Source of the DNA: Hydractinia symbiolongicarpus
Lineage: Eukaryota > Cnidaria > Hydrozoa > Anthoathecata > Hydractiniidae
DNA length: 64,000 bases
Direction: 5' to 3'
NCBI RefSeq assembly: GCF_029227915.1
Contig: NC_079881.1
Location: 9,548,001-9,612,000, forward strand
A program made the translations under genes and the position numbers. This document shows positions 347 to 22,158 of this stretch, one piece after another. Positions within the stretch are counted from its first letter, which is position 1; every line of letters begins with the position of its first letter. Below the pieces are notes generated by a model. That model made no database searches. It had not been told where the DNA came from and saw only the letters and a program-made list of their open reading frames with translations.

Positions 347-3300
347 ATGATTACGAAGAGCCAAGCCTTCATATATACGTTTTTGTTTTTCACAAGCTGT
401 TTATCAATTTTTAACCACCTTCGATTTGAAGGTTCTGAAAGTCATGCAAGCTTCGGTAAGTCCATACCTTTTATTGCATTGAATTCTCTAAAGGTACAGT
501 CTCTGATTACACCTTCATTCTCACGAAAATACTGATAATTCATGGCTAATGAAAGTTTTTTTTGCCTAAAAGTAAGTCAGATGCACCCCCCCCCCCCCCC
601 CCACCCTCGACACCCCCACTGCCTTTCTTCACCAGTTCAAAAAATATTAACACACTGTTTTTATTATTTCGTACGAAACATTAAGTTAAATTTTTTTTGA
701 TAATTTTGATTATACTTTATAAACTAGTCAGTTATATTACTTATCAAAACATATCATGTATTGTATCACTGCCTTTCTTCACCAGTTCAAAAAATATTAA
801 CACACTGTTTTTATTATTTCGTACGAAACATTAAGTTAAATTTTTTTTGATAATTTTGATTATACTTTATAAACTAGTCAGTTATATTACTTATCAAAAC
901 ATATCATGTATTGTATCAAAAAATCATCTTTTTTTTAAAAATTTATTTTCTATAACACTTTTTGCAGCTAAAGAAAACTGGTATTTTCTTTTTATAATGT
1001 TGTTGTATAGTCTGTACTTTATCTTCAACTTTATATTCTGTTCTGTATAATATGCATATTTTAAGAAAGAAGTTTCATATGTCTCTGGAATGAGAAGACG
1101 TTCTTTTTGTTCTTTGTGAACTATACCTCAAACGTTGCACTATAGCTATATATTTATATCTATTTATACATAGGACACCAAATTTAATCTCGCGCCCTGA
1201 ACCATAGAACAAGGTTTTTTTTCAAACTGTTTTTCTACTCTTTAGAACCTTTACGAACGTTACGAAAGCTAAAACTTTGAAATTTTCTGCTGGTACATTT
1301 AAAAATTCAAGTATTTAAAGACATTGAGATTGTACCTTTGTCCTGAATATTATAACGTCCAAAATCGACCTAAAAAATTCTAACATAAATATTCTTGCCA
1401 AAAAGGTACCACAGAAACACTCTTTTCAGTGCATTCTCTTAACTGATGAATAATACCAAGTCGCGATTATATCGTACTAAGTGCAAATGTTATTTTTAAA
1501 ATTTTTTAAAACGCTTGGGCAAGGCAAAGAACGTTTAAAAATCGTTAAAAAATTCCTGCATTATACCTAAACCTAAAAATATTTAAAAAGCCTCTTCATG
1601 CTGACGTTTTAACGCTATTTTCCAAATAAATTGATAAAGTTTAAGAAAGAGATTTCGCTTTTGTCCTAATTTTCTTTATACGTGGAAAGTCAAAACATTT
1701 AGAATGTCTGGATTCCACATTCTGTAGTAATGAATATTTATAAAAAACAAGGCTGACAATCTTGCTTGGCATTTTCCCTTTTATTTAAAAATGTCGCCTG
1801 TAGAAATGTGTTTTTAACTTTTTTTTTATTTTTGTTTTTGCCTTTGAAAGTCATGTTAGAGTGCATGTTGAATTAGCCTGCGGAAAATCCACGGGATCTT
1901 TGTCTCTGTCATTTTTGTCTCACAAACACAAACATGGACGTAAGGCTGGAACTATAATCTTGTTGAATGCTGTAAACATTAACTTTTCTCACTTTCACAG
2001 CAAACACTGCTAGCAATGGAGATTCCAGCCTGAGAAACCGACGAGATGTAAACGCAAAAAACCTTTCATTCGATCTTTTGAATATCTTTGGTGTGATGAA
2101 AAAAAATGATAGCACAGCTACCATTCGCGAAAAAATACTGGAAATTGTAAGAAACACCACATTATCAGAAGATCAGATATGTAAAGCTGTTAGGGAATGC
2201 AATTGTAAGTATAGCTATGCACAGTGTACACTTGCCTTTTGTAGTAGTTCTTGCGTTAAAGATTTTGTTTTGAAAGTCTACCATAATAACTGGTAGATAA
2301 AGTTAAAAATACATTTGGTTGAAGCAAGAAGACACGAATCGTCTTATTATAAAGTCTTGTTAGTTGAACTGTTTACAATTTATTTTGGTGAAAAGGTAAA
2401 TATATAAGTAAAAACTTTAAATATAAAAGAAAATATCAAAAAGAAACCAAAATGAAAAATTATAGTTTTAAGATGTTCAAACCAAATTTGGATTCGTCAG
2501 ACTTTTAAAAAAGAGTTTGTGTGTATTCATTTCTATTATAATGCATTATTTTCTTTTAGGCACAATGAAACCTGGACCAATGGTAATACTTTTTCTCTCT
2601 GTTGTTAGCTTATACAGTAAGAGCAACAATTAAAAACTATTTTATTTAAATCTTAGGGTCCAACAGGTCCTCCTGGACCACCAGGTAAAGACGGTAAAAG
2701 AGGACTTGGTTTATTTTCTCCAAGATTGAGAATGAAAGACCTGCATCATTTATCTATAGTCAGAAGCAATAAAATTCTAAAATGTCAATTCTTTGGAAAC
2801 CCAATACCTTCTGTAAGATGGAAACATGACTTCTCAAACACGAATGTTACAATTGAGATTAATCATAACAAATCGGTTATTACATCATACTTGCACGTTA
2901 AAAACATTACGTGGGATGAGCGTGGTAGCAAGGTGACTTGCATTGCGGAAAGTGTTTTAGGAAGTGCAAATGCTACTGGGCTTGTTACAGTTCATGGTAT
3001 AAATCCTGTTTCTATTTTCTAGAATAATATATTTACATTTTTTTTCACAAACTCAAGCATACGGTTAACTCTCGGCAACTCTCGGTAACTCTTGGTAAAT
3101 CTCAGTAACTTAAACTTCTAAGGGACCGACAAAAATAGTTCGACTTAACAAATATTGGATATAAAGCAAAGCTTCCGTTAAGTATAATTTAATCTAAAAT
3201 GAGGTTATAATTCAAGTTAAAGCGATTTTTTCAAGAAGTTGGGCAACAGCTATTAAAAAATGGTGCAATCTGGGCGATGAAAGGACATGCAAGTCCCTTA

Positions 3301-5159
3301 TAAATTTTACTCTCCTGAACAAACAACACTATCTATCTATATTACATCAGGGATTAAAACTAAAAAACTGAAATCTGACATTTATTCAGTCTTTTATTTC
3401 CTTTTCTGAAACAAAAAGTTTGATTTATTCATAGAGATTAGCCGCAACGGGAAGGGGTCAAAAATGGAGTCGAGTTAACGAGTTAGCTACCGGTTTAAGT
3501 TACCCAAACTGTATCATCATTACATTTTTCTTATCTTTTGCAGTTGCACCAATTATACATTTACCAAGCGGTCCTATTCATGCAAATCTTGGTACCAATG
3601 TTACATTTCCTGAATGTAAAGTAACTTCTAATCCACCCGCTACGATAACATGGAAACGCGGTTATGTAAATCTTCCCATTGGACGACACGAGAAAAACAA
3701 CACATTTCTTCAAATTTTTAATGTGCGCGCAAAAGATGAAGGTTATTACGTTTGCGAAGCAGAAAATTACTTAGGTATGGTTTGAAAAATGTAAAAAAAT
3801 ATTAGGCTTTCCACTGTCATCTTTGTAGCACTTGGTAAATTATTATGCTTATGTATGGATTGTTGCTCCTATATCATCAGGTTGTCAACCTTTTCGTTTC
3901 TTTAATCCGTTTTGTTTTCTTGCACAGGCAAATCAACACAAGGCATACTACTAACATCAGGACCTTTGCAATTCACAAAGAAACCAACAGATCTTATTGA
4001 ATCAGTTAATTCATCAGAAGTTATCCAATGCTCAGCGTTGGGTTTGCCAAAACACATGTCTGGAAAGGTTGTGGATCTTGATAGCAAAAAGGAACTTTCG
4101 GTTAACATTTCCACAGCTGCCAACTCATTTACGTTGACTGCAGAAATTACAACGCCTGGATATTACAAGTGTATAATTCAGGAGCTCCAACAAGTAGTTG
4201 AAAGTAGTTTTAAAGTCAATTTTTTTTCATGTAAGTTAAAATTTAGAAACGTTAATTATATTCACTTTCAGATATGCAACTTGCCGATGCATCAACTCGA
4301 CAGAGCCATACGCCAGAAGATATCAGGACATATTAGTAAAAGGAATATTCAGACATTTCCCACTTTTAGAAATTAGGAATGTAACTTTAAGCGTAAATCC
4401 AACATAATACTTAAGAAAATACTTTCACGGTACTAATTTTGGGCACAATTGTTATTCATTCCAGGTTCTAAATATGTTTCCATTAATAACTTTATTAAAT
4501 CTACCGAATGCACGTAACTCTGAATTTTTTTAGTACCATCTTCAATATTAACAAAAGATCTTTCACCACGTCTTGCCGGGTGGTTAAAAGAAGAAAATGC
4601 ATTTGCAAAATATGCTCTATGTTGGAAAGGGACAAGAGATGGTTGGAACGTGACAACATTCCATCAAAATTGTGATAATAAGCCGTATACTCTTACACTC
4701 ATGAAATCATTTTTTTCAATCTATGGAGGTTATTCAGACATTGCATGGAGCCGTACGTATTGTTATCATACTCCCCCCCCCCCTGCAAAAGTAACGAAGT
4801 CTAAAAACTACTATTAAATTATTAATAGTTATTGTAATAACACATGTATTCTTTTTTCTTTTCTAGTCTCTACAGCTTCAAAAATCAGCTCAAAAGCTTT
4901 TCTTTTCAACTTAAAATACCGACCGCGAAAAGTACTGATCCGAAGTGGTTCAAAAGCAATATGTTATGACAGAAATTCAGGGCCCTGTTATGGACATAGG
5001 GAATTCAGAATCAGAACTCCTGAATATGGTTATAAAAAAATTGTGAACACTTTTACAAGTAAAACAGGTAAAAGTTTTGCAGGGACTACAGAACCATTTT
5101 CTGGGTACATTGGTAGACTGAGCGAGATAGAAGTGTTTTACAGAGTAGACATTGTATAA
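347..5159 (+). CDS. Secreted/type II membrane collagen-Ig(3)-TLDc protein, 8 exons
   Basis: Exons 347-455, 2001-2204, 2560-2582, 2657-2996, 3544-3774, 3928-4230, 4534-4752 and 4867-5159 join in frame to 573 aa; all introns are GT-AG and all but one are phase 1. Residues 7-22 are hydrophobic (signal peptide or signal anchor). R48-N-R-R51 fits a furin site. Residues 110-130 are seven Gly-X-Y triplets preceded by a cysteine pair. Ig-like domains lie near 140-224 and 226-302 (both Cys...Trp...Cys, the second with a DEGYYVC end) and 308-402 (Cys pair, no clear Trp). Residues about 410-573 match TLDc: a CWKGTRDGW block, then FHQNCDNK, then GGYSDIAW, ending in a beta-rich segment. The layout (anchor, furin site, collagen, ligand-binding C terminus) resembles colmedin/gliomedin-type adhesion proteins, but TLDc is usually intracellular. 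A role in adhesion or recognition is inference. The ATG at 347 directly precedes the hydrophobic segment and is matched by the paralogue at 8264. Confidence 0.85.
586..602. repeat. Poly-C run in intron 1
   Basis: Seventeen consecutive C residues just downstream of exon 1; a homopolymer whose length may be unreliable in the assembly. A shorter C run sits in intron 7 near 4771-4782. Confidence 0.9.
618..917. repeat. Perfect 150-bp tandem duplication in intron 1
   Basis: Sequence 618-767 is repeated base for base at 768-917. No coding sequence is involved. Perfect identity means a very recent duplication or an assembly artefact next to the poly-C run. Confidence 0.9.
1868..1900 (-). mobile_element. 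Remnant of Helitron 3' hairpin end
   Basis: TTAGCCTGCGGAAAATCCA and the following CGGG resemble the hairpin terminus of the Helitrons at 39409 and 59998. Only the terminus is left, close to exon 2 of the TLDc gene. Confidence 0.45.
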
Positions 5160-7073
5160 TGAGAAAAATTTTTTAACTTGATGCTTGTTATAAAAAATTG
5201 TATTGTATGGATGGATTATTGTATTGTATAAAATATCCTGAATATGCAGATAAAAATATTATGACTTATCATTTGACAATACACCTCTTTACAGTTTAAG
5301 TTGTTCACTCAGTTTATCTAAGAATTTAATATAGACTCTCTTATAGACTCGTTATTCATGATCTTGCTTTCTCTTCATCAGGCCTGCCTTTATCTGGGCT
5401 TTGTTAATCGAACAATATTATAATATTAACCGTGTGTATGGCTATCTGTATATCTGTCCGTGTATAAACCAAAAGATGACAACTTTAAATAGACCAACTT
5501 TAGGAAGGATTTTTCTTTAATAGAAACAGTGTTACGATGGTAAGATCTTCGTCGTATTAACCCCGATTAGCGTCCCCAAAATATGTTCATGCGACATCAA
5601 AATCAGGGATGGCAGTAACAATTTCCCATCTATTTCATAGGTCCTTTTACTCTTTTTACTCTTTTTCTTCTATTAATTTTTATATGTAATTATAGTTAAA
5701 CTTTCAAAGAGGTATTTTTATGTTTAGTTTAACTTGAAAATAATCGAAAACGGTACTACGATTTTCTGACCCTAGAGGCTCGTCGAGCTTGCTGTTCCGT
5801 AATGCAGAAACAGTCAGTGGTGTATTTTGAACGTCATTTACCTGCCCTAAACTGCTGCAATAGCACTTGGTCGGAGATTTGAAAAAGCGATTCTACTTGT
5901 CAGTTTCGTCAAATACCCATAATTTGGCCATGTATGCAATAATATTTTGTCAAGGATTGTACCTCGCTATAGGCTACATAATTTTTAAATAATCTGACGT
6001 TCTGATAGTTTTTACCTAAGTTGGCTAGATAGCTAGACTTGTCACACAGCTTTAATAATAGCAGCACATTGTGTCAAATATATCCATCATGACTGTCCAT
6101 ATTTGTTTTCCAATCAAAGCAAAATAAAATTGCGTTTACTCTTTTCTTATTCTGGCATCCTTTTAATACACACCATGCGGGGATTTAAAACTTTTAAACC
6201 TAGCATTGAGCTTAACCAACATTTAATCTAAAATATAATGACCTAGTTGCACCGAAATTGCTTTACCAAAAATCGTACGTATTTGTTTTATTACTTGCTC
6301 AATTCTCACGTTCCTTAAAAGTCTTGCCGCCCTCGCTTAAAATGCTTAAATTATAGAAGTCAAAAAATACTGCTGCAATGCAACAAAAAGAATGTATATA
6401 ATGCATTAGCTTGATCTAAAAGCAACCAAAACCAACTTTAAAGTAAAAAGAGGCCATTTGCATGCGACCGAAGTGATATACTGGCGCATTGAAACTCCAC
6501 GGCGTATTTAAAAATTCTAGTAATTACTTAATGGTTGAGTTTAATTTCGGGGTTGGTCGGAGAAGGGTCGAATCTTTTGTATTGATGACTTTAAATAATG
6601 CGCATTTATTGGAAAATGAATTGTTTGCACGGAAATCTCGCACATGTTTTAAATTTTTATTTAGTTGAGAGCAAATTTTTAGTTTGCAGCGAAGTAGTGC
6701 AGATATTTTTTGTTCACTTGCAATATTTTTAAAATTAATTTGTCATACAGATTGTTATTAACATTTGGTGATAATATGAGATAATAGCATGTATCAATGG
6801 GCCGTTCTAATGCTTTTGTTTATTATTCTTGGTGTTAAATTAGCTAGGTACTAGCTATCTTTGAATATGATACAAATAGCTAGCGAGTTGGCTGGCTGCT
6901 GACTTGTTCCTAACAAATACGCCCTTAAAATCAATATTTTGTCATACTACTACTAATTAACCCTCTTTATAACTGTGTTAACTACGATTATGTGAAACTG
7001 CCAGTTAAAGGGCTATAAAAGTCAACATTTTGTTGATACATTCTTCAAACTTGCATGGCTCCGTAGATTTTAT
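5160..7073. other. Intergenic region, no gene seen
   Basis: This is the 3' flank of the TLDc gene, AT-rich. I found no Ig, collagen or TLDc exon on either strand and no convincing transposon end. An AATAAA occurs near 6123. Confidence 0.6.
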
Positions 7074-7250
7074 GGCGCCGTAGATTAGTGGTTATAGCTC
7101 TCGTACTCTGTGCAGGAGACCGGGGTTCGACTGCTCTTGACGGCGAATCAACATCCGCGAGTAAATGTTACTATAGCCCTGGATTAACCCAAGCCATGGG
7201 AGGGAAATTGGGGATGGCAAAAAATCCATCCATCCACCCACCCACCCACC
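7074..7250 (+). mobile_element. tRNA-derived SINE, copy 1
   Basis: An A-box-like TAGATTAGTGGTTATAGC and a B-box GGGGTTCGACT (about 7125-7135) are spaced as in a tRNA promoter, followed by a non-tRNA body (GGATTAACCCAAGCCATGGG, then GGAAATTGGGGATGG). The same string of blocks recurs at 22490-22745. A CCATCCA/CCCA microsatellite lies at 7226-7250. The acceptor stem does not pair, so this is not a functional tRNA. Boundaries are approximate. Confidence 0.7.
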
Positions 7251-7714
7251 AAAGGGATATGGAAATAGGTCTATTGACAAAGACTTACGCAAACAGTTCT
7301 AAGGAACAGACCGTGGCTCAAACGGACTTGAATTTATTTCCGTTTTCATATACACGGTTTCATAGAAAAACAAACCCTCGATCTATTTATTTCTTATTGT
7401 TCTTACACATAATGAATAAACGATGCTGAAGCCAGACCTTCAATTTTTTTTAAAAAAAACGTATATGATGTTGCAGACGCTAAAATTAAAACAATAATAG
7501 ATTTTTTAAAAAACTTAAATAACATATCCAGGAAAAAATACACACATTCAAATTAAGCAAGGTCCATTTTATTAATAGGATGTTAAAATTTTAACAGGTT
7601 AAACGTCAAAACAAGGCGTTGCAATTAAGGTCAAAAAGTAACGTAAAAAATGTAATTATGGTTATTCACTTATTTTACAGTACCGAGCAACCGCTAACTT
7701 TCTTGGTAAATCCC

Positions 7715-7919: not shown

Positions 7920-8264
7920 AATTACATTTGCTAACAGCTTGACAAAATTGACCTGCAGGAAGATTTGTCACGACACTTTGGATGATTTTTGTTAACTCCT
8001 CTTGGATTGTAATATTGACTTCACTTCGAATCAAACCAATGAGTTTTGCAAGATCTGATGTTGTATCATTAATGTTGCTGGATATGTCAGCTATATATGA
8101 AACAGTGATATAGTTTTTATGTTAGTGTACTGCTAAAGTATAATAATGCGTATTTTCTTACCACTTTGACTTTTGGAATCTTTAAATGGAACACAGTCAA
8201 AAGTTGATAAACAACTTGTTAAGAAAAAGATCGCATATAATAAACACCGACTTCTTGTGATCAT
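7920..8264 (-). pseudogene. Truncated paralogue (exons 1-2) of the collagen-Ig-TLDc gene
   Basis: On the minus strand, exon 1 (8264-8162) encodes 34 aa beginning MITRSRCLLYAIFFLTSCLS, closely matching the start of the gene at 347, and ends in phase 1 at GTAAGA. Exon 2 (8090-7920) encodes about 57 aa ending in a QFCQAVSKCN block, parallel to QICKAVRECN in the first gene, and ends in phase 1 at GTAAGT. The next expected exons (CTMKPGPM, then Gly-X-Y) are not found between 5160 and 7920. Both exons are open with intact splice signals, so this may be a recently truncated duplicate or a short gene with unrecognised downstream exons. It is convergent with the full gene, implying an inverted duplication. 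Confidence 0.7.
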
Positions 8265-14182: not shown

Positions 14183-15259
14183 GTCATCATCATCATCATC
14201 ATTCTCGGCTTAACGTCCGTTTTCCATGCTAGCATGGGTTGGACAGGGTATATTAATGACCCTCTTCCAATCTGATCTAGACTGTGTTAGATCTAAACTC
14301 AACTTCCTCTGTATCAAGTCTGTCCTTATAACCTCCTGCCAAGTCTTTCTCGGTCTGCCTCTGGGCTTTGCCCCAGGAACTATCAAGTCTGTACACTTTC
14401 TTACCCAATTATCCTCCTCCATTCTTTCCAAGTGCCCCAGCCAATTCAATCTTCTTATCTGGATAACATCTTTAATTCTACGGAGACTTAGCCTGCTTCT
14501 TAGCTCATCTGAACTCTTTCTGTCTCTCATACTGGCGTTACACATCCACCTAACCATTCTCATATCATTCCTTTCTAAACGGTCAAGATCTTCCTGCTGC
14601 ACTGCCCATGTCTCACTACCGTACAACATAACACTTCTTACACAGGCCTCATACAACCTACCTTTTACCTCAATTGACAGGACTCTGCTAGTCAACAAGG
14701 GAAGTAACTCTCTGAACTTTTTCCAAGCAGAACCTATCCTGCAAGTAACACTTCTTCCAACACCCCCTTTACTGCCCAACATATCACCTAAGTAACAGAA
14801 GTTCTCAACTATCTCTAACGAGCCACTGTTGTACATCATTAAAGCTGGAAATACTTCATTCTCTATAATCTCACCTTTGCAACGCTTGCATACAAACTGA
14901 ATGTCAGCTCTTAACCTTCCACTAATACTACTGCACTTCTTATGTACCCAATGCTTGCAAGTCTGACAAAAAATTTAGTTACTACCAACCCCTTTCCTGC
15001 AAACTCCACAAGGCCACTTTCCAACTACAAGGTCACACTTGGCTGCAATGCTACTAATCATGACTTTAGACTTTGCTGTGTTTACCTTTAGCCCTTTCTC
15101 TTCTAGTCCTTTCTTCCACTTCTCAAACTTTTCAACTAATTCTTCCATCGACTCTGCTATGAGAACCAAATCATCTGCATACAATAACTCCCATGGACAA
15201 CCTGTTCTGAACTCCATCAACAACGCTTCTAAGACTAGAATAAACAACAAAGGACTAAG
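14183..15259 (-). pseudogene. LINE (RTE-like) reverse transcriptase, 3' half
   Basis: Minus-strand continuation of the RT split by the 15260-20963 element. From 15259 it encodes SPLLFILVLEALLMEF and the catalytic YADD box, then a cysteine-rich zinc module (CGVC ... CQTC-KHWVHKKC ... CKRC), a C-terminal domain ending in GRPRKTWQEV and a DLTQSRSDWKRVI block, with a stop at 14210. One in-frame TAA (14977-14975) interrupts the zinc module; otherwise the frame is open. The element ends in an (ATG)n run (14183-14202 on the plus strand as TCA repeats), typical of RTE-like LINEs. Clade assignment is moderate. Confidence 0.85.
15255..15259. repeat. Target-site duplication CTAAG (left)
   Basis: Identical to 20964-20968. 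Removing 15260-20963 and one copy restores a continuous LINE reading frame (VHQGSVL-SPLLF). Confidence 0.92.
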
Positions 15260-15289
15260 GGGTCATCTACAAAATTCGTAGCAATTCGT

Positions 15290-15610
15290 ATCAAAAAAAT
15301 TCGTATATACTATACGAATTTTCTTTTGCCATACAGTAATTAAATTCGTATGAAATTTTTCTAAATTCGTATAAAATTCGTATGAGTTTTTAATTAAATT
15401 CGTATGAGTTTTAAATTAAATTCGTATGAGTTTTAAATTAAATTCGTATGAGTTTTAAATTAAATTCGTATAAGTTTTAAATTAAATTCGTATGAGTTAA
15501 ATTCGTACGAGTTTAACAAAAAATTCGTATGAGATTTTAATTAGATGCGTATGGTTTTAAAAAAAAGAAAATCGTTTGACATTGTATTAAATTCGTATAT
15601 GAGTTTCAAA
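15290..15610. repeat. Subterminal ATTCGTAT-rich repeats (left)
   Basis: Degenerate units of about 22 bp built on TAAATTCGTATGAGTTTTAA. Related motifs recur at 16455-16585 and, inverted, at 20800-20960, so they mark both ends of the element. Confidence 0.85.
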
Positions 15611-15611
15611 A

Positions 15612-16450
15612 TAAAATATTTTTTAGATCGCATTTTAAAAGTTTAAAAACGAAAAACGGCGATAGAAATGTTTTTTTAGATCGCATTTTTAAAAGTTGAA
15701 AAACGAAAAACGGCGATAGAAATGTTTTTTTAGATCGCATTTTTAAAAGTTTTAAAAACGAAAAACGGCGATAGAAATGTTTTTTTAGATTGCATGTTAA
15801 AAGTTGAAAAACGAAAAACGGCGATAGAAATGTTTTTTTAGATCGCATTTTTAAAAGTTGAAAAACGAAAAACGGCGATAGAAATATTTTTTTAGATCGC
15901 ATTTTTAAAAGTTGAAAAACGGCGATAGAAATGTTTTTTTAGATCGCATGTTAAAAGTTGAAAAACGAAAAACGGCGATAGAAATGTTTTTTTAGATCGC
16001 ATTTTAAAAAGTTTAAAAACGAAAAACGGCGATAGAAATGTTTTTTTTAGATCGCATTTTCAAAAGTTTAAAAACGAAAAACGGCGATAGAAATGTTTTT
16101 TTAGATCGCATTTTTAAAAGTTGAAAAACGAAAAACGGCGATAGAAATGTTTTTTTAGATCGCATTTTTAAAAGTTAAAAAACGAAAAACGGCGATAAAA
16201 ATGTTTTTTTAGATCGCATGTTAAAAGTTGAAAAACGAAAAACGGCGATAGAAATATTTTTTTAGATCGCATGTTAAAAGTTGAAAAACGAAAAACGGCG
16301 ATAGAAATGTTTTTTTAGATCGCATTTTTAAAAGTTGAAAAACGAAAAACGGCGATAGAAATGTTTTTTTAGATCGCATGTTAAAAGTTGAAAAACGAAA
16401 AACGGCGATAGAAATGTTTTTTTTAGATCGCATTTTTAAAAGTTTAAAAA
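15612..16450. repeat. Tandem array of a 57-bp unit (about 15 copies)
   Basis: Each unit contains GATCGCATTTTTAAAAGTTG, then AAAAACGAAAAACGGCGATA and a GAAATG-T7 tail. Copies differ by small indels. Found only in the left arm. Confidence 0.9.
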
Positions 16451-16585
16451 CGAAATATAATTCGTATGAAAATTCGTATAAAAGAGAATATAATTCGAAT
16501 GACAATTCGTATGAAAGAGAATATAATTTGTATGAAAATTCGTATGAAAATCGTATAAAAGAGAATATAATTCGTATGACAATTC

Positions 16586-17182
16586 TATGGAACGCCAAGG
16601 CTGCCTTATTCGATGATTTCATTCGGTCATAAAACACTATTTGTCGCTAATTGTATTCGATTTTGTTAAAATTCATTCGATTTTGTAAAAATTCATTCGA
16701 TTATGCGCTAAATTCATTCGATTATGCGCTAAGTTCATTCGATTATGCGCTGAATTCATTCGATTATGCGATGAATTCATTCGATTATGCGATGAATTCA
16801 TTCGATTATGCGATGAATTCATTCGATTATGCGCTGTTTGCATGTGATAAATTATTCGATGCGCTGAATTCATGCGCTAAATTATTCGATGCGCTGTTTG
16901 CATGCGCTAAATTATTCGATGCGCTGTTTGCATGCGCTAAATTATTCGATGCGCTGTTTGCATGCGCTAAATTATTCGATGCGCTGAATTCATGCGCTAA
17001 ATTATTCGATGCGCTGTTTGCATGCGATAAATTATTCGATGCGCTGAATTCATGCGCTAAATTATTCGATGCGCTGTTTGCATGCGATAAATTATTCGAT
17101 GCGCTGTTTGCATGCGCTAAATTATTCGATGCGCTGTTTGCATGCGATAAATTATTCGATAGTTTTGGCGCCTCAATCAAAA
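16586..17182. repeat. Inner inverted-repeat arm, left copy
   Basis: About 600 bp inverted and nearly identical to 20239-20804. Consists of a non-repetitive start (GGAACGCCAAGGCTGCC), then 21-bp units on TTCATTCGATTATGCGCTAAA, then eleven 30-bp units on GATGCGCTGTTTGCATGCGC plus TAAATTATTC. The right arm has ten 30-bp units in a different order. Unit lengths divisible by three give long spurious frames on both strands. Confidence 0.92.
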
Positions 17183-17203
17183 CTCAAGGATTACAAAATT
17201 AAT

Positions 17204-19838
17204 ATGGCTGACGAAAGAACACGAGCTATATTAAAGAAACTTGGATTGAAACACCTTATTTTGAAGTTTAGTGAAGAAAATATAACCGCTGATTTGATAC
17301 CAAAGCTTTCTCTAAAGCATTTCGAAAGCTTAGGTGTAACAGATAATGGAGTTATAATGAACTTGAGGGTAAAATTTTGCAGCTTTGGTGGAATTAAACC
17401 ACAAAAGTTAAAGTGGGAAAATGGAGGAGCTCCAAAATTCCTAATACCTGAAGAAGTCCTACAAAACCTACTCAATGACGGCTGTCTTATTTCGGAGATC
17501 AGCAATATCTTATGCGTTTCAGAAAGAACAATTTATAGAAGAATGGAAGAGTATGGGCTTAAAAAGCATAACTTTACAGAAATGTCTAATGAAGAGTGTG
17601 ATTCAATTCTGAGCACTGTGACTCAAGAGTTTCCTAATTGTGGCGAAGTTATGTTACGAGAACTGTTAAGAGAAACTGAAGGTTTTCCAACTTTAAAACA
17701 TTGTGGCGGGTTTGAGTTATTAAAATGTATCCCAAATTGCAGGATCCTTGAACCTTTGAATTGCAAACTAAATTCCATATCTTTGAAAGCTACCATAGGA
17801 CAAGGAAAGATTTATATACGTCCAATTCAAAAGTCGTTGTCGGTAATACCTCTGCAAAAGGCAAGTACAGTAACAACTTCTATCAAAGAAAAATGTTTAA
17901 ATTGTTTTGAGGAGTTTTGTCTCGAAGAACTGAGACAACATACTGAGTTATGCATGCCATACTATGAATCTAGTGATGATTCAGAAGTTGCATTACCCCC
18001 TGTGTTATCAAATGAGGTGACCCATGAAGAGGAAAACAATGAAATAACTGAAACTGAATCTGCTTTTCGAATAAGCTATGAGTACATTCCAGAAACAAGA
18101 GATCAAAAGCAGGATAATGCTAATAACAACGAAGAATTTGATCTCAATGCAAACATTAACAACATCATCAGTTATTGCATTGATAATCAAGTGAATTCAC
18201 CAGTCGAGATATTACGGTATATGCAGCAGAAGTTAGTTCAAGGTCGAAGTTTAGAAATAACTGATATTGCGGTTCATGATGACAGACCAACAAATTTTAT
18301 CATGGTTGATCGGGCCAATCTTATTGAAACTGGTTTAGAAGAGATACGGGAACTGCAAAATAAGTTGATTTGTTTATCTGTGCAGTTTTATGGTGAGGTA
18401 GGAAAGAGTATTATTTTTATCTTCATGTTTAATATTAAGATTGTTTTTTTGTTCATCAGTTAATTTGTTTATTTTACCAGACATGTTTGTGTAATCATTA
18501 TATTATATTATTTATCATTTATATTATTATATTTTTAGTTGGCAGAAGATTATGGAGGGCCAAGAAAAGAGTTTTTTCAACAGATAATAAGAGAAATCAA
18601 AGAAAAATACTTTGATTGTGAAATAAACTTGTTTCCTTTAAGTGATTATTATGATATTGGAATAGTTTTTGGTACGTAATTACACTCAGCGTTATACCAC
18701 TGTGAGAAATTGAAAAAAGGAACACAAAAACATTTCTTGTTGTTGTGAGCTTCTTAAAAACTAAAAAAAAATCTAAAAAGATAAATATTCTATGAAAATG
18801 AGTGTTTATTCTTATTTTTTTAGGCTTGAGTTTGCTTCAGAATGGTCCATTTCCACAGTTTTTGGAAGAAGATGACCTGCAAAAAATATTTTTTAACGAA
18901 GAACCTGGCAAATTCAATGAACTCCGAAGAGCTTTCAAGGATCTTGGAATTTTCCAAGTTTGTATTATATATTTTTGGATGTTTCTCTAAAAGAAGCTTT
19001 TTCTCATAAAGCTTTCTCTTAACATACCGTATTTCCTCTTATCCGTCTGTTTTCTAATACCTAAATTCAGCATTTTAAGGTTTATTAGAGGGGGCGTTAA
19101 TAGAGGAAATACGGTAAGTAAATACATAAGGAAAAGATCTGTTGAGCATTGTATTTACATCTACACTCAATGAGTTTATTTATCATTATAATTAGTTATC
19201 ATTGCTTTCAGATTGTGGAAGCCTTTCCTATCATGCTACACCTTTTCCGACCCAATCCTAATGCTACTTTCACTTTTAAAAAACTGGTCAACTTGCTTCA
19301 GCCAAAATGGGCAGCTGAAGGGTCAAACGAACATTACAGGCAGAAAAAGCTTTATCCGTCATTAATGAAATATTTGAGGCAAGCACATGGTAAGTGTCAA
19401 ATTTAAATTTCCACGCGCTCGCTCCGCTTTTCTATAAACTAAATAGCCAAACATTTTTTATTTTGTATGAGCAGAGTTTCACAAAGGAAGCTGGCTTCTG
19501 CTACCTTAAGGGAAGAAATTATGTGCGGAAGAAATATCTATATATAAACTTTCTATTTTTGTTACTGTTTAGGTGGAAAACGTTCGGGTGTTTCGCTTCC
19601 CGATGTACTAAGGTTTGTCACTGGAAGTGAAGAAGAGCCTTTGTTAGGATTTGCACTGGCCCCTTCGATAAAATTTGTTCCGGTGATGGAAGAAGGTCGA
19701 TTTCTTCCGACAAGTAACACTTGCATTAATCAATTGCAATTACCAATGGAAAGTAATGCTATTTCCCTTCCAGACGAAAACGCTCTGTTCGGTTTATATG
19801 ACTTAGCCTTTTCTAGTCGATTTTTTGGACAAATTTAA
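17204..19838 (+). CDS. Transposon-borne SAM/HTH/zinc-finger/HECT E3 ligase-like protein, 5 exons
   Basis: Exons 17204-18397, 18539-18671, 18824-18957, 19212-19389 and 19573-19838 join to 634 aa without internal stops. Residues about 5-58 look like a SAM domain (LKKLGLKHLILKF...LGVTDNG). Residues 83-160 form an HTH of the kind seen before integrase-like cores (ISNILCVSERTIYRRMEEYG, then QEFPNCGEVMLRELL). C231/C234/H246/C250 form a possible zinc finger, followed by an acidic linker. The rest is a HECT domain: NFIMVDRANLIETGLEEI, QFYGELAEDYGGPRKEFF, LPDVLRFVTGSEEE, and the catalytic-cysteine loop LPTSNTCINQLQLP with C597. All HECT landmarks including the acceptor cysteine are present, so ubiquitin-ligase activity is plausible. 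The ATG at 17204 lies 21 bp after the left inverted arm; upstream in-frame codons from 17069 belong to the repeat. AATAAA at 20095. Function in transposition is unknown. Confidence 0.87.
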
Positions 19839-20238
19839 AAGTCGTCGACAGTTTTATTATTTATGCCTATTAGGAACTTAACTCTTGTGATTAAATGCAA
19901 ACATTTATGCTTTCTTTCGTTACCTTTTCACTGATTCAAAACTTATTTTATAATTGGTAGTTGTTTACTTGTAAACTTCGTTTTGTTTACGGTGTCCCTT
20001 TCCAAAGGGACACTTAATTTTTGTTTTATTCAGAGAGAATATTTTTTATATTTTAGCTCTTATCGTTTGTATTCATTTTCTTATATTATAGGAGAATAAA
20101 TGTTCCGTAGTTTCTTCAGAAATTTTCGATGTACTTTGCAAGATTAGACTGACGCTTAATCGTAACACTATGGTAAAGTGTTCCCGCGAAATTGTTAATT
20201 TTCTAAGAAATTCAGAGGTTACCATTTTTTAATTTTAA
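19839..20238 (+). other. 3' flank of the HECT gene inside the transposon
   Basis: Non-coding, with a polyadenylation signal AATAAA at 20095-20100, running up to the right inverted arm. No further ORF. Confidence 0.6.
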
Positions 20239-20804
20239 TTTTGATTGAGGCGCCAAAACTATCGAATAATTTATCGCATGCAAACAGCGCATCGAATAAT
20301 TTAGCGCATGAATTCAGCGCATCGAATAATTTATCGCATGCAAACAGCGCATCGAATAATTTAGCGCATGAATTCAGCGCATCGAATAATTTAGCGCATG
20401 CAAACAGCGCATCGAATAATTTAGCGCATGAATTCAGCGCATCGAATAATTTAGCGCATGCAAACAGCGCATCGAATAATTTAGCGCATGCAAACAGCGC
20501 ATCGAATAATTTAGCGCATGAATTCAGCGCATCGAATAATTTATCACATGCAAACAGCGCATAATCGAATGAATTCATCGCATAATCGAATGAATTCATC
20601 GCATAATCGAATGAATTCATCGCATAATCGAATGAATTCAGCGCATAATCGAATGAACTTAGCGCATAATCGAATGAATTTAGCGCATAATCGAATGAAT
20701 TTTTACAAAATCGAATGAATTTTAACAAAATCGAATACAATTAGCGACAAATAGTGTTTTATGACCGAATGAAATCATCGAATAAGGCAGCCTTGGCGTT
20801 CCAT
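20239..20804. repeat. Inner inverted-repeat arm, right copy
   Basis: Inverted counterpart of 16586-17182, with ten 30-bp units followed by 21-bp units and the same unique end (GGCAGCCTTGGCGTTCCAT). Beyond it lie ATTCGTAT motifs to 20963. Confidence 0.92.
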
Positions 20805-20963
20805 ACAATTCGTATGAAAATCGTATAAAATTCGTATTAGATTTTTTAAAAATCGTATAACTATTTAACACTATACGAATTGTATACGATTTTTATACGA
20901 ATTAAAAGCAATTAAATTCGTATATATTCGTATAAAATATCATACGAAATTTGTAGACGACCC

Positions 20964-21757
20964 CTAAGTACAGAACCCTGATGTACACCAACATTTACAC
21001 TAAATTCATCACTAAGTGAATCGTTAATCCAGACACGACTTCTAGCATTGCGGTACATAGACTGTACCATCGTAACTAGCCACTCATCCACACCTAATTT
21101 TCTCATAGCCCACCAAATAACTTTAGGTGGCACTCTATCAAAAGCTTTCTCTAAATCTACAAAGGCAAAATAGAGATTCTTTCTCTTTCCTAAATACTTT
21201 TCCTGAAGCTGTCTGATTAAAAATATTGCATCTGTAGTTCCACACCCTGGAACAAAACCAAATTGCATCTTATCTATATCAATTCTTTCTCTAAGTAACT
21301 TATCAATCACTCTTTCAATAACTTTCATTACTTGATCAACCAACTTCAAACCTCTATAGTTACCCCTTTCTAATGCATCACCCTTGCCCTTGAAACAATT
21401 CACTATTACACTCGACTGCCACTCACTCGGAATAGCACCATCCTTTATAATCTGGTTAGCAAGACTTGTAATAAGCTCAACTCCAATATATCCAGATGCT
21501 TTTACCATCTCTGCAACAATACCTGATACTCCTGCAGCCTTGCCAATCTTCAATTTCCTAATAGCCTCCACTACCCATTCTGTCTTGATCTGCATAGCTG
21601 GCCCTTCTATAACATCATCATCAGACAAATTATCCTCGTCCCAATCAAACTCAGTGTTAAGCAACCTCTGATAATGATTCTTCCAAGCTACCCTTTTTTC
21701 CTCCTCTGTGCTAGCCAAAACACCTTCATCATTACGTATACACTTCTCACCTACAAT
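20964..21757 (-). pseudogene. LINE (RTE-like) reverse transcriptase, 5' part
   Basis: Minus-strand upstream half of the split LINE. Reads VGEKCIRNDEG, then a linker (WKNHYQRLLNTEF), RT motifs GNYRGLKLVDQVMKVIERV, QFGFVPGCGTTDAIFLIRQL, AFVDLEKAFDRVP (catalytic Asp) and VGVHQGSVL, where the 5.7-kb insertion follows. The element is 5'-truncated near 21757: the endonuclease domain is missing. Confidence 0.85.
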
Positions 21758-21783
21758 ATGAATATGAATATGAAACCTAAAAA

Positions 21784-22158
21784 GTATACATAGGTGAATA
21801 TTTATCATAGCACATCCATAATTTATTCTCAACAGAGAATGCTTCACCCCGATCAGACCTCTGATCATGAGGGGCAAGTATAATGCGTGTAAGTCATATT
21901 GAAGAAGAACTACTTTTTTATCACTAACATACTGCCTGGCAGTCAGCGGGATTCGTTAGGTTCTGGGGGCAGCAGAAATTACGGATGTGCTATGATAAAT
22001 ATTCACCTATGTATACACACTATCCGCATAAACTATCTTAGTTCATCACTAACATATTGCCGCACATAGTGTAGTGGGTTTGTCTGTGGCGCCCAGTTCT
22101 GGGGACTCCAGACAAACCCACAGATGTTAGTGATGAACAAAGTAGTTCTTCAATATGA
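21784..22158. repeat. Complex foldback region with two interleaved inverted repeats
   Basis: Pair 1: 21784-21824 and 21976-22016, 40 of 41 bp complementary (GTATACATAGGTGAATATTT core). Pair 2: 21894-21936 and 22123-22158 (TCATATTGAAGAA...CTAACAT). A smaller hairpin (GTGGGTTTGTCTG / CAGACAAACCCAC type) sits at about 22076-22122. No ORF. Probably one or more non-autonomous elements at the truncated LINE end. Confidence 0.75.

Follow-up and report, generated by a model that had tools for sequence, protein, structure and literature searches.

A transposase-HECT fusion in a nested IS3EU/GingerRoot-type transposon of Hydractinia symbiolongicarpus, and the recurrent pairing of HECT ligase and transposase genes

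The window analysed here, a stretch of 64,000 nucleotides from Hydractinia symbiolongicarpus, contains two nested DNA transposons: the ends in GGGTC are those of the outer one, whereas the HECT gene lies on the inner one. The sequence shows the inner transposon to be an internal-deletion derivative of a family that carries a transposase gene and, recurrently, a HECT gene; the account as a whole we consider very probable. That the HECT ligase recurs in IS3EU-type elements as their second gene is strongly supported in this genome, and it probably holds this place in other animals too. The initial annotation had described one complete element at 15260-20963. Its readable ends are real, but they delimit only the outer of the following two elements:

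15259-20964, no strand: outer gene-less PIF/Harbinger-like element, ends GGGGTCRTCTACAAA (from its TIRs, seven other copies and copy L006)
15256-15258, no strand: left outer target-site duplication, TAA
20965-20967, no strand: right outer target-site duplication, TAA
16586-20805, + strand: inner IS3EU/GingerRoot-type transposon, internal-deletion copy, ends TATGGAACGCCAAGGC..GCCTTGGCGTTCCATA
16580-16585, no strand: left inner target-site duplication, CAATTC
20806-20811, no strand: right inner target-site duplication, CAATTC
16586-17187, + strand: left inverted arm of the inner transposon, with 21-bp and 30-bp tandem units
20234-20805, - strand: right inverted arm of the inner transposon

The outer element, about 1.48 kb long once the inner transposon that interrupts it is subtracted, lies in a LINE-like reverse-transcriptase ORF and ends in GGGGTC. 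PIF/Harbinger elements are characterized by a 3-bp TWA duplication and G-rich ends. A TWA duplication flanks the element in the window as well as all seven other GGGTC copies examined, and by these two features the outer element is PIF/Harbinger-like, although its large minisatellite interior distinguishes it from non-autonomous members of that group. The CTAAG duplication reported earlier is not found at either level: the outer one is the 3-bp TAA and the inner one the 6-bp CAATTC. Superfamilies with 5-bp duplications were dropped, since the duplications turned out to be of 3 and 6 bp. The GGGTC ends do flank both the gene and the arms, as a single transposon with a CTAAG duplication and HECT as its sole gene would have it. 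However, the inner ends and their 6-bp duplication recur in copies that lack the GGGTC region, none of the seven other GGGTC copies has a HECT or transposase match, and copy L006 of the outer element is the same site devoid of the inner insert. The single-element reading, to which we give a negligible probability, is thus refuted by the nested boundaries and by the copies without insert. A HECT system encoded by the GGGTC element, which many gene-bearing copies with its termini would have supported, falls with it; it is to the inner family that such a system can be ascribed.

The long repeat arms are also real, but are those of the inner transposon. They measure about 460-550 bp and are about 98% alike; the first 40 bp are identical between the two ends, so that the TIRs exceed 30 bp as in fungal IS3EU. 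The element begins with TATGG and ends with CCATA. Its limits come from alignment and from 12 fetched copies, in which the left end sequence was found 12 times and the right one 11 times; TA..TA ends (TATGGAACGCC..GGCGTTCCATA) are thus common to the window and to the 11 copies with both ends. The 6-bp duplication is exact in the window and in 10 of these 11, the exception being L039 (AAAATT/AAAATG). IS3EU/GingerRoot elements are described as having TA..TA ends, 6-bp duplications, long TIRs and an integrase-type DDE transposase (PMC10045372, in the part available), and the fungal IS3EU ends as TAYGG..CCRTA (PMC12730594, likewise in part). The inner element shares these ends, duplications and TIRs, and autonomous copies of its family have the integrase-type DDE transposase; it is therefore of IS3EU/GingerRoot type, a placement made from ends and duplications and not from a tree. 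It differs in that a HECT E3 ligase is its second gene and in that the window copy has no DDE core. IS481EU was considered and set aside: its transposase is a related one of integrase type, but TG..CA ends, duplications of about 4, 15 or 25 bp and parabasalid hosts (PMC10045372, in part) do not fit.

The gene in the window had been read as a single intact HECT gene. The HECT domain is indeed complete, catalytic cysteine included, but the protein is a chimera whose residues 1-157 are the start of a transposase and residues 157-634 a HECT ligase. The open frame matches transposase P0012 over 182 residues (25 upstream codons included) and then HECT protein P0001 over 478, with 100% identity. The gene is made up as follows:

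17204-18397, + strand: exon 1 of the fused gene
17204-17674, + strand: portion contributed by the transposase, with SAM-like and HTH regions and no difference from P0012
17672-17674, + strand: deletion junction, a GAA codon common to the transposase and HECT readings
17672-18397, + strand: portion of exon 1 contributed by the HECT protein, with no difference from P0001
18539-18671, + strand: exon 2
18824-18957, + strand: exon 3
19212-19389, + strand: exon 4
19573-19838, + strand: exon 5, HECT C-lobe, with the active-site Cys codon at 19722-19724 and the stop at 19836-19838

These identities indicate that an internal deletion joined the transposase and HECT genes in frame, with loss of the DDE core. 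The suggestion that the element is non-autonomous is true of the window copy: because the deletion took out the DDE core, its movement would depend on a transposase supplied in trans. One may ask whether selection has favoured the fusion protein as such, in the role of an E3 ligase that binds the ends and acts in trans to repress or regulate its family; truncated P-element repressors offer a parallel. The reading frame is free of stops, the splice sites are intact, and the product retains the entire HECT domain along with SAM and HTH. Yet one join in three would be in frame by chance, the junction of the window was seen in no other copy among those examined, and different internal deletions occur elsewhere, as random deletion predicts (fetched copies L039, L040, L043, L044, L049 and L050, and C8:27262867 from hit tables only). 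We consider a selected fusion unlikely.

Ten inner-family copies in the genome keep an open full-length transposase (474-507 aa). In six of the ten, a complete HECT gene lies downstream, with five exons, 648 codons and 0-1 amino acid differences. These six two-gene copies show 0-5 pairwise mismatches over about 4,660 bp. The order is that of a transposase (SAM-like, HTH, DDE core) followed by a separate HECT gene on the same strand, itself laid out as SAM, zinc-finger-like and HECT E3-ligase regions. The inner family is young and has two genes, one for a cut-and-paste transposase and one for a HECT-type ubiquitin ligase of its own. Three Hydractinia LOC entries were also matched, on contigs that are apparently those carrying family copies.

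The pairing extends well beyond this family. When Pfam models were run over the whole genome, 37 of 90 HECT loci (from 141 rows) lay within 5 kb of an IS3EU-type transposase (150 listed rows of 151 matches), against a random mean of 0.29, in the calculation of which the sizes of contigs C5 and C11 were guesses. At 8 kb, with 40 HECT loci (one row each, from 88 rows) and 90 transposase loci merged from 100 rows, the figure was 33 of 40 against 0.12 expected. The two genes stand in three main orders, and the families concerned include some whose transposases are no more than 32% identical. In a second family, whose transposase is about 42% identical, the transposase and a HECT gene with a CUE domain (E 1e-5) lie inside perfect 20-bp TIRs with a 6-bp duplication. 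A CUE domain suspected by eye upstream of the L053 HECT exon was not confirmed by Pfam, and the 5-kb stretch of L053 did not reveal where this element begins and ends. In public sources, at least five contigs of 10 kb-5 Mb putatively bear both genes, against 0.003 expected; they were recognized as equal sizes in the transposase list (117 of 719 matches, 120 being listed and three having no size) and in the HECT list (118 matches, 113 of the 114 from one search and five from another). Two further coincidences of size were left out: one contig, at 1,544 bp, has no room for both genes, and the other, a Pinctada chromosome of 62.6 Mb, is so large that an equal size says little. Relatives in IMG/VR and GTDB genomes amounted to pattern matches, none of them confirmed.

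Host genes do ride on DNA transposons, and the HECT gene might be a passenger captured by chance with no effect on transposition. Indeed, for 111 of the 150 listed transposase rows there is no PF00632 locus within 5 kb, and the same holds for 36 of the 60 rows that score at least 195 bits. Of the 39 positive rows, two or more (C9:26494955 and C13:6780904) may count as such only through a HECT gene that belongs to a neighbour. Deletions, or exons under the cut-off, explain some of the HECT-less rows, and IS3EU-type families without HECT may exist. Against a passenger, the pairing takes three main orders and spans families whose transposases are as far apart as 32-42% identity, which also leaves a one-off capture unsupported, and the active-site cysteine in the C-lobe is conserved in all 22 homologues that cover it (23 aligned) and in the window copy. 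We therefore hold the passenger explanation to be quite improbable.

What the ligase might do is suggested by its domains. In fold searches, the HECT domain and the integrase core both had matches; both lobes of the HECT fold are present, and the domain in the window is a predicted E3 ligase. The SAM of the transposase and that of the HECT protein align over 37 aa at 30% identity (E 5e-4), although SAM matches mostly stay under the Pfam cut-off, and on two of the putative shared contigs SAM is visible in the HECT partner only. That one lineage has a SAM domain on each of the two proteins suggests that they make direct contact. In that lineage, the related domains could dock the ligase to the transposase; ubiquitination of the transposase itself, or of chromatin proteins found at the ends or at the target, would then tune the assembly or turnover of the transposition complex. 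We see about an even chance that the two proteins act on one DNA-bound complex. A broader proposal, put forward tentatively, is that animal IS3EU elements are two-component systems whose mobility would depend on their own HECT protein, with SAM docking in one lineage, ubiquitination of the complex or of local chromatin, and deletion copies like the one in the window giving rise to end-binding fusion ligases that would feed back on the family.

Alternatively, the ligase could mark for destruction a host silencing or defence protein and not the transposase. Fungal IS3EU elements carry extra TET/JBP and alpha-kinase genes, the transposase and alpha-kinase being oppositely oriented, and their TET/JBP is thought to reverse methylation silencing (PMC12730594, in part). 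These are accessory enzyme genes like HECT, and their orientation matches that of the convergent HECT families here, but the enzymes are others and the hosts fungal, not animal. Similarly, the VTD deubiquitinases of Helentrons, suggested to overcome limits on transposon inheritance, are ubiquitin enzymes that spread within DNA transposons (PMC9741609, in part); they are, however, domains inside the Helitron ORF, whereas the E3 ligase here has a gene of its own next to that of a DDE transposase. These analogies make counter-silencing a serious possibility that falls somewhat short of even, given that the shared SAM hints at direct contact with the transposase. Our literature search found no publication linking HECT to IS3EU, and HECT is not mentioned in the portions of PMC10045372 and PMC12730594 that were searched.

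A cut-and-paste transposon lineage has thus repeatedly retained a ubiquitin E3 ligase next to its transposase. This makes two ideas testable: that transposition is controlled by ubiquitin, and that a transposon attacks host silencing through protein degradation, to be compared with the presumed DNA demethylation by its fungal relatives. Annotators of cnidarian, bivalve and other invertebrate genomes should bear in mind that the HECT genes of this family are probably, at least in part, transposon genes.

The gene in the window has five exons with GT..AG introns and encodes a product of 634 amino acids. Several splice options are possible; the model picked was preferred because it preserves the conserved HECT reading, and P0001, a related protein of H. 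symbiolongicarpus, concurs. The exons of this model are:

17204-18397, exon 1
18539-18671, exon 2
18824-18957, exon 3
19212-19389, exon 4
19573-19838, exon 5

Pfam searches of the product detect HECT at residues 557-605 (E 1.1e-8), together with SAM and winged HTH matches that are both under the cut-off, and the top PDB sequence matches are AREL1 (E 1.1e-6) and then E6AP (E 0.00085). In a protein homologue search, its relatives split into two classes, one including P0001 (LOC130647115), a SAM-HECT protein, and the other P0012 (LOC130624204), an integrase-type transposase of the same species with a match to PF24764 and a sub-threshold one to PF00665. The window reading is 100% identical to P0012 over 182 residues, starting 25 codons upstream of the ATG, and its last 478 residues are 100% identical to P0001; the two parts join at a single common Glu codon (17672-17674). 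Given these successive identities, the predicted protein is a chimera, with residues 1-157 assigned to the transposase and 157-634 to the HECT protein. Public gene annotations list P0001, P0012 and a further relative, P0002, all of them transposon copies, as normal LOC genes for an 'uncharacterized protein'.

The genome assembly containing the window (G000, 480.9 Mb) holds 10 full-length, stop-free matches to P0012; these copies were fetched along with two truncated ones, making 12 stretches. Alignment of the window with the family copies ends near 16586 and 20805. The inner element delimited there, TATGGAACGCCAAGGC..GCCTTGGCGTTCCATA, is flanked by a 6-bp duplication, CAATTC. Its left end is present in all 12 fetched copies and its right end in 11, with exact target-site duplications (TSDs) in 10 of 11 copies, the exception being L039 (AAAATT/AAAATG). 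These ends and 6-bp TSDs are those of IS3EU/GingerRoot, whose hallmarks in the literature are TA..TA ends and TSDs usually of 6 bp (PMC10045372); the ends of fungal IS3EU elements are given as TAYGG..CCRTA (PMC12730594). One copy, L046, has two right-end motifs, at 8157 and 8403, and its right arm seems partly duplicated, since the TSD fits the outer motif.

The GGGTC ends, the long inverted arms and the intron-containing gene described in the initial annotation are all present, but they do not make up one HECT transposon: the inner element has its own boundaries, 16586 and 20805, within the GGGTC-ended element (15259-20964), and L006, another copy of the GGGTC-ended element, aligns through the insertion site and lacks the insert. 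A genome search with the outer left end gives at least 51 match rows, part of which overlap (40 of 145 candidates scored). All seven other GGGTC copies examined have GGGG-type ends, the first G being changed to T in L005, and an exact 3-bp duplication, TTA or TAA; the duplication in the window is therefore TAA (15256-15258 and 20965-20967), and not CTAAG as first read. None of the seven has a HECT or transposase match. We take the outer element, by family criteria, to be PIF/Harbinger-like. Its removal restores an open LINE-like reverse transcriptase frame:

14210-15258 + 20968-21955, minus strand, LINE-like reverse-transcriptase ORF, target of the outer element; the flanks join in one open frame

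The outer element also contains a minisatellite (15637-16502) with units of about 54 bp and 15 overlapping repeat copies.

A complete HECT gene lies downstream of the transposase, on the same strand, in six of the 10 copies with a full-length transposase. These six genes have 5 exons and 648 codons, with 0-1 amino acid differences from P0001, and the two-gene copies span 6.05-6.39 kb and show 0-5 pairwise mismatches across ~4,660 bp. In the remaining four, the HECT gene is partly deleted, and in L049, L050 and the window both genes are truncated and joined; hit tables point to a like arrangement at C8:27262867. The inner family is young and has undergone many internal deletions. In the transposase gene, the window (17669-17674) and L050 (3041), two different deletion copies, have breakpoints that lie no more than ~5 bp apart, possibly at a deletion hot spot.

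The association of the two genes extends across this genome. Searches with P0001 and P0012 gave 40 HECT loci and 90 transposase loci; 33 of the former have one of the latter no more than 8 kb away, against 0.12 expected. Pfam models gave 90 HECT loci, host genes among them, and 150 listed transposase rows; 37 of these loci have such a row within 5 kb (random placement, 2,000 trials: mean 0.29, maximum 4). The pairing persists through changes of gene order: among the 39 transposase rows with a HECT nearby, at least two of which may count the HECT of a neighbour, 17 are convergent with it, 12 have it upstream and 9 downstream on the same strand, and 1 is arranged otherwise. No HECT was detected by Pfam within 5 kb of the other 111 rows, including 36 of the 60 scoring at least 195 bits; some of these cases are due to deletions and to exons under the cut-off, and families without HECT may exist among them. 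At G000:C10:7939548-7953467, four PF24764 transposase rows lie inside 14 kb, and the regular ~3.7 kb spacing of three of them suggests a tandem array.

Further families carry the pair. In the stretch L051 (1-10000) the features are:

1203-7705, second HECT-carrying IS3EU family, with terminal inverted repeats (TIRs), TSD and two ORFs
239-715, flanking HECT C-lobe ORF (21.9 bits, below the 23.9 cut-off)
8996-7670, flanking transposase, opposed to the flanking HECT C-lobe ORF

Its TIR is a perfect 20 bp, TATGGAGTCATGTACTGGAC (best match in 30 trials on shuffled sequence, 14/20), and its TSD is GCAACT. One ORF (641 codons) encodes HECT (E 5.6e-14) and CUE (E 1e-5), and the other (496 codons) a transposase with ~42% identity to P0012. 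The arrangement looks as if this second family were nested inside a further element of this kind. A third family, now decayed, is represented by L052 (TSD GATATT, TIR matched at 19/20, genes convergent), and L053 has an open transposase frame of 526 codons with a convergent HECT exon (E 5.9e-18).

Outside Hydractinia, HECT matches were found in the cnidarians Clytia, Dendronephthya, Paramuricea, Porites, Montipora and Exaiptasia, and beyond them in many bivalves, the hemichordate Ptychodera and the crinoid Antedon. The transposase matches, of which 120 of 719 were listed, include Clytia, Desmophyllum, Crassostrea, Mytilus and Pinctada. Both classes occur on five contigs, of 11,836, 30,226, 459,999, 468,268 and 749,193 bp (the same contig being assumed from equal sizes), against 0.003 expected in a jitter control.

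The SAM-like domains of the transposase and the HECT protein resemble each other (30% over 37 amino acids, E 5e-4) in what we call the SAM lineage. SAM is found in both partners on the 11,836-bp contig and, weakly, on the 459,999-bp one, in the HECT partner only on the 30,226-bp and 468,268-bp contigs, and in neither partner of L051 and L053, in a search that lacked some first HECT exons. The literature searched does not describe a HECT gene for IS3EU-type elements; a database note on one may exist. The nearest precedent found is that of the Helentron deubiquitinases, ubiquitin enzymes carried in transposons (PMC9741609). Given what is known of the family, and the TSDs, the DDE protein would carry out transposition on the TATGG ends. 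That the HECT ligase is a partner of the transposase has, in our estimate, an even chance of being correct; a role in counter-silencing is a plausible but less likely alternative.
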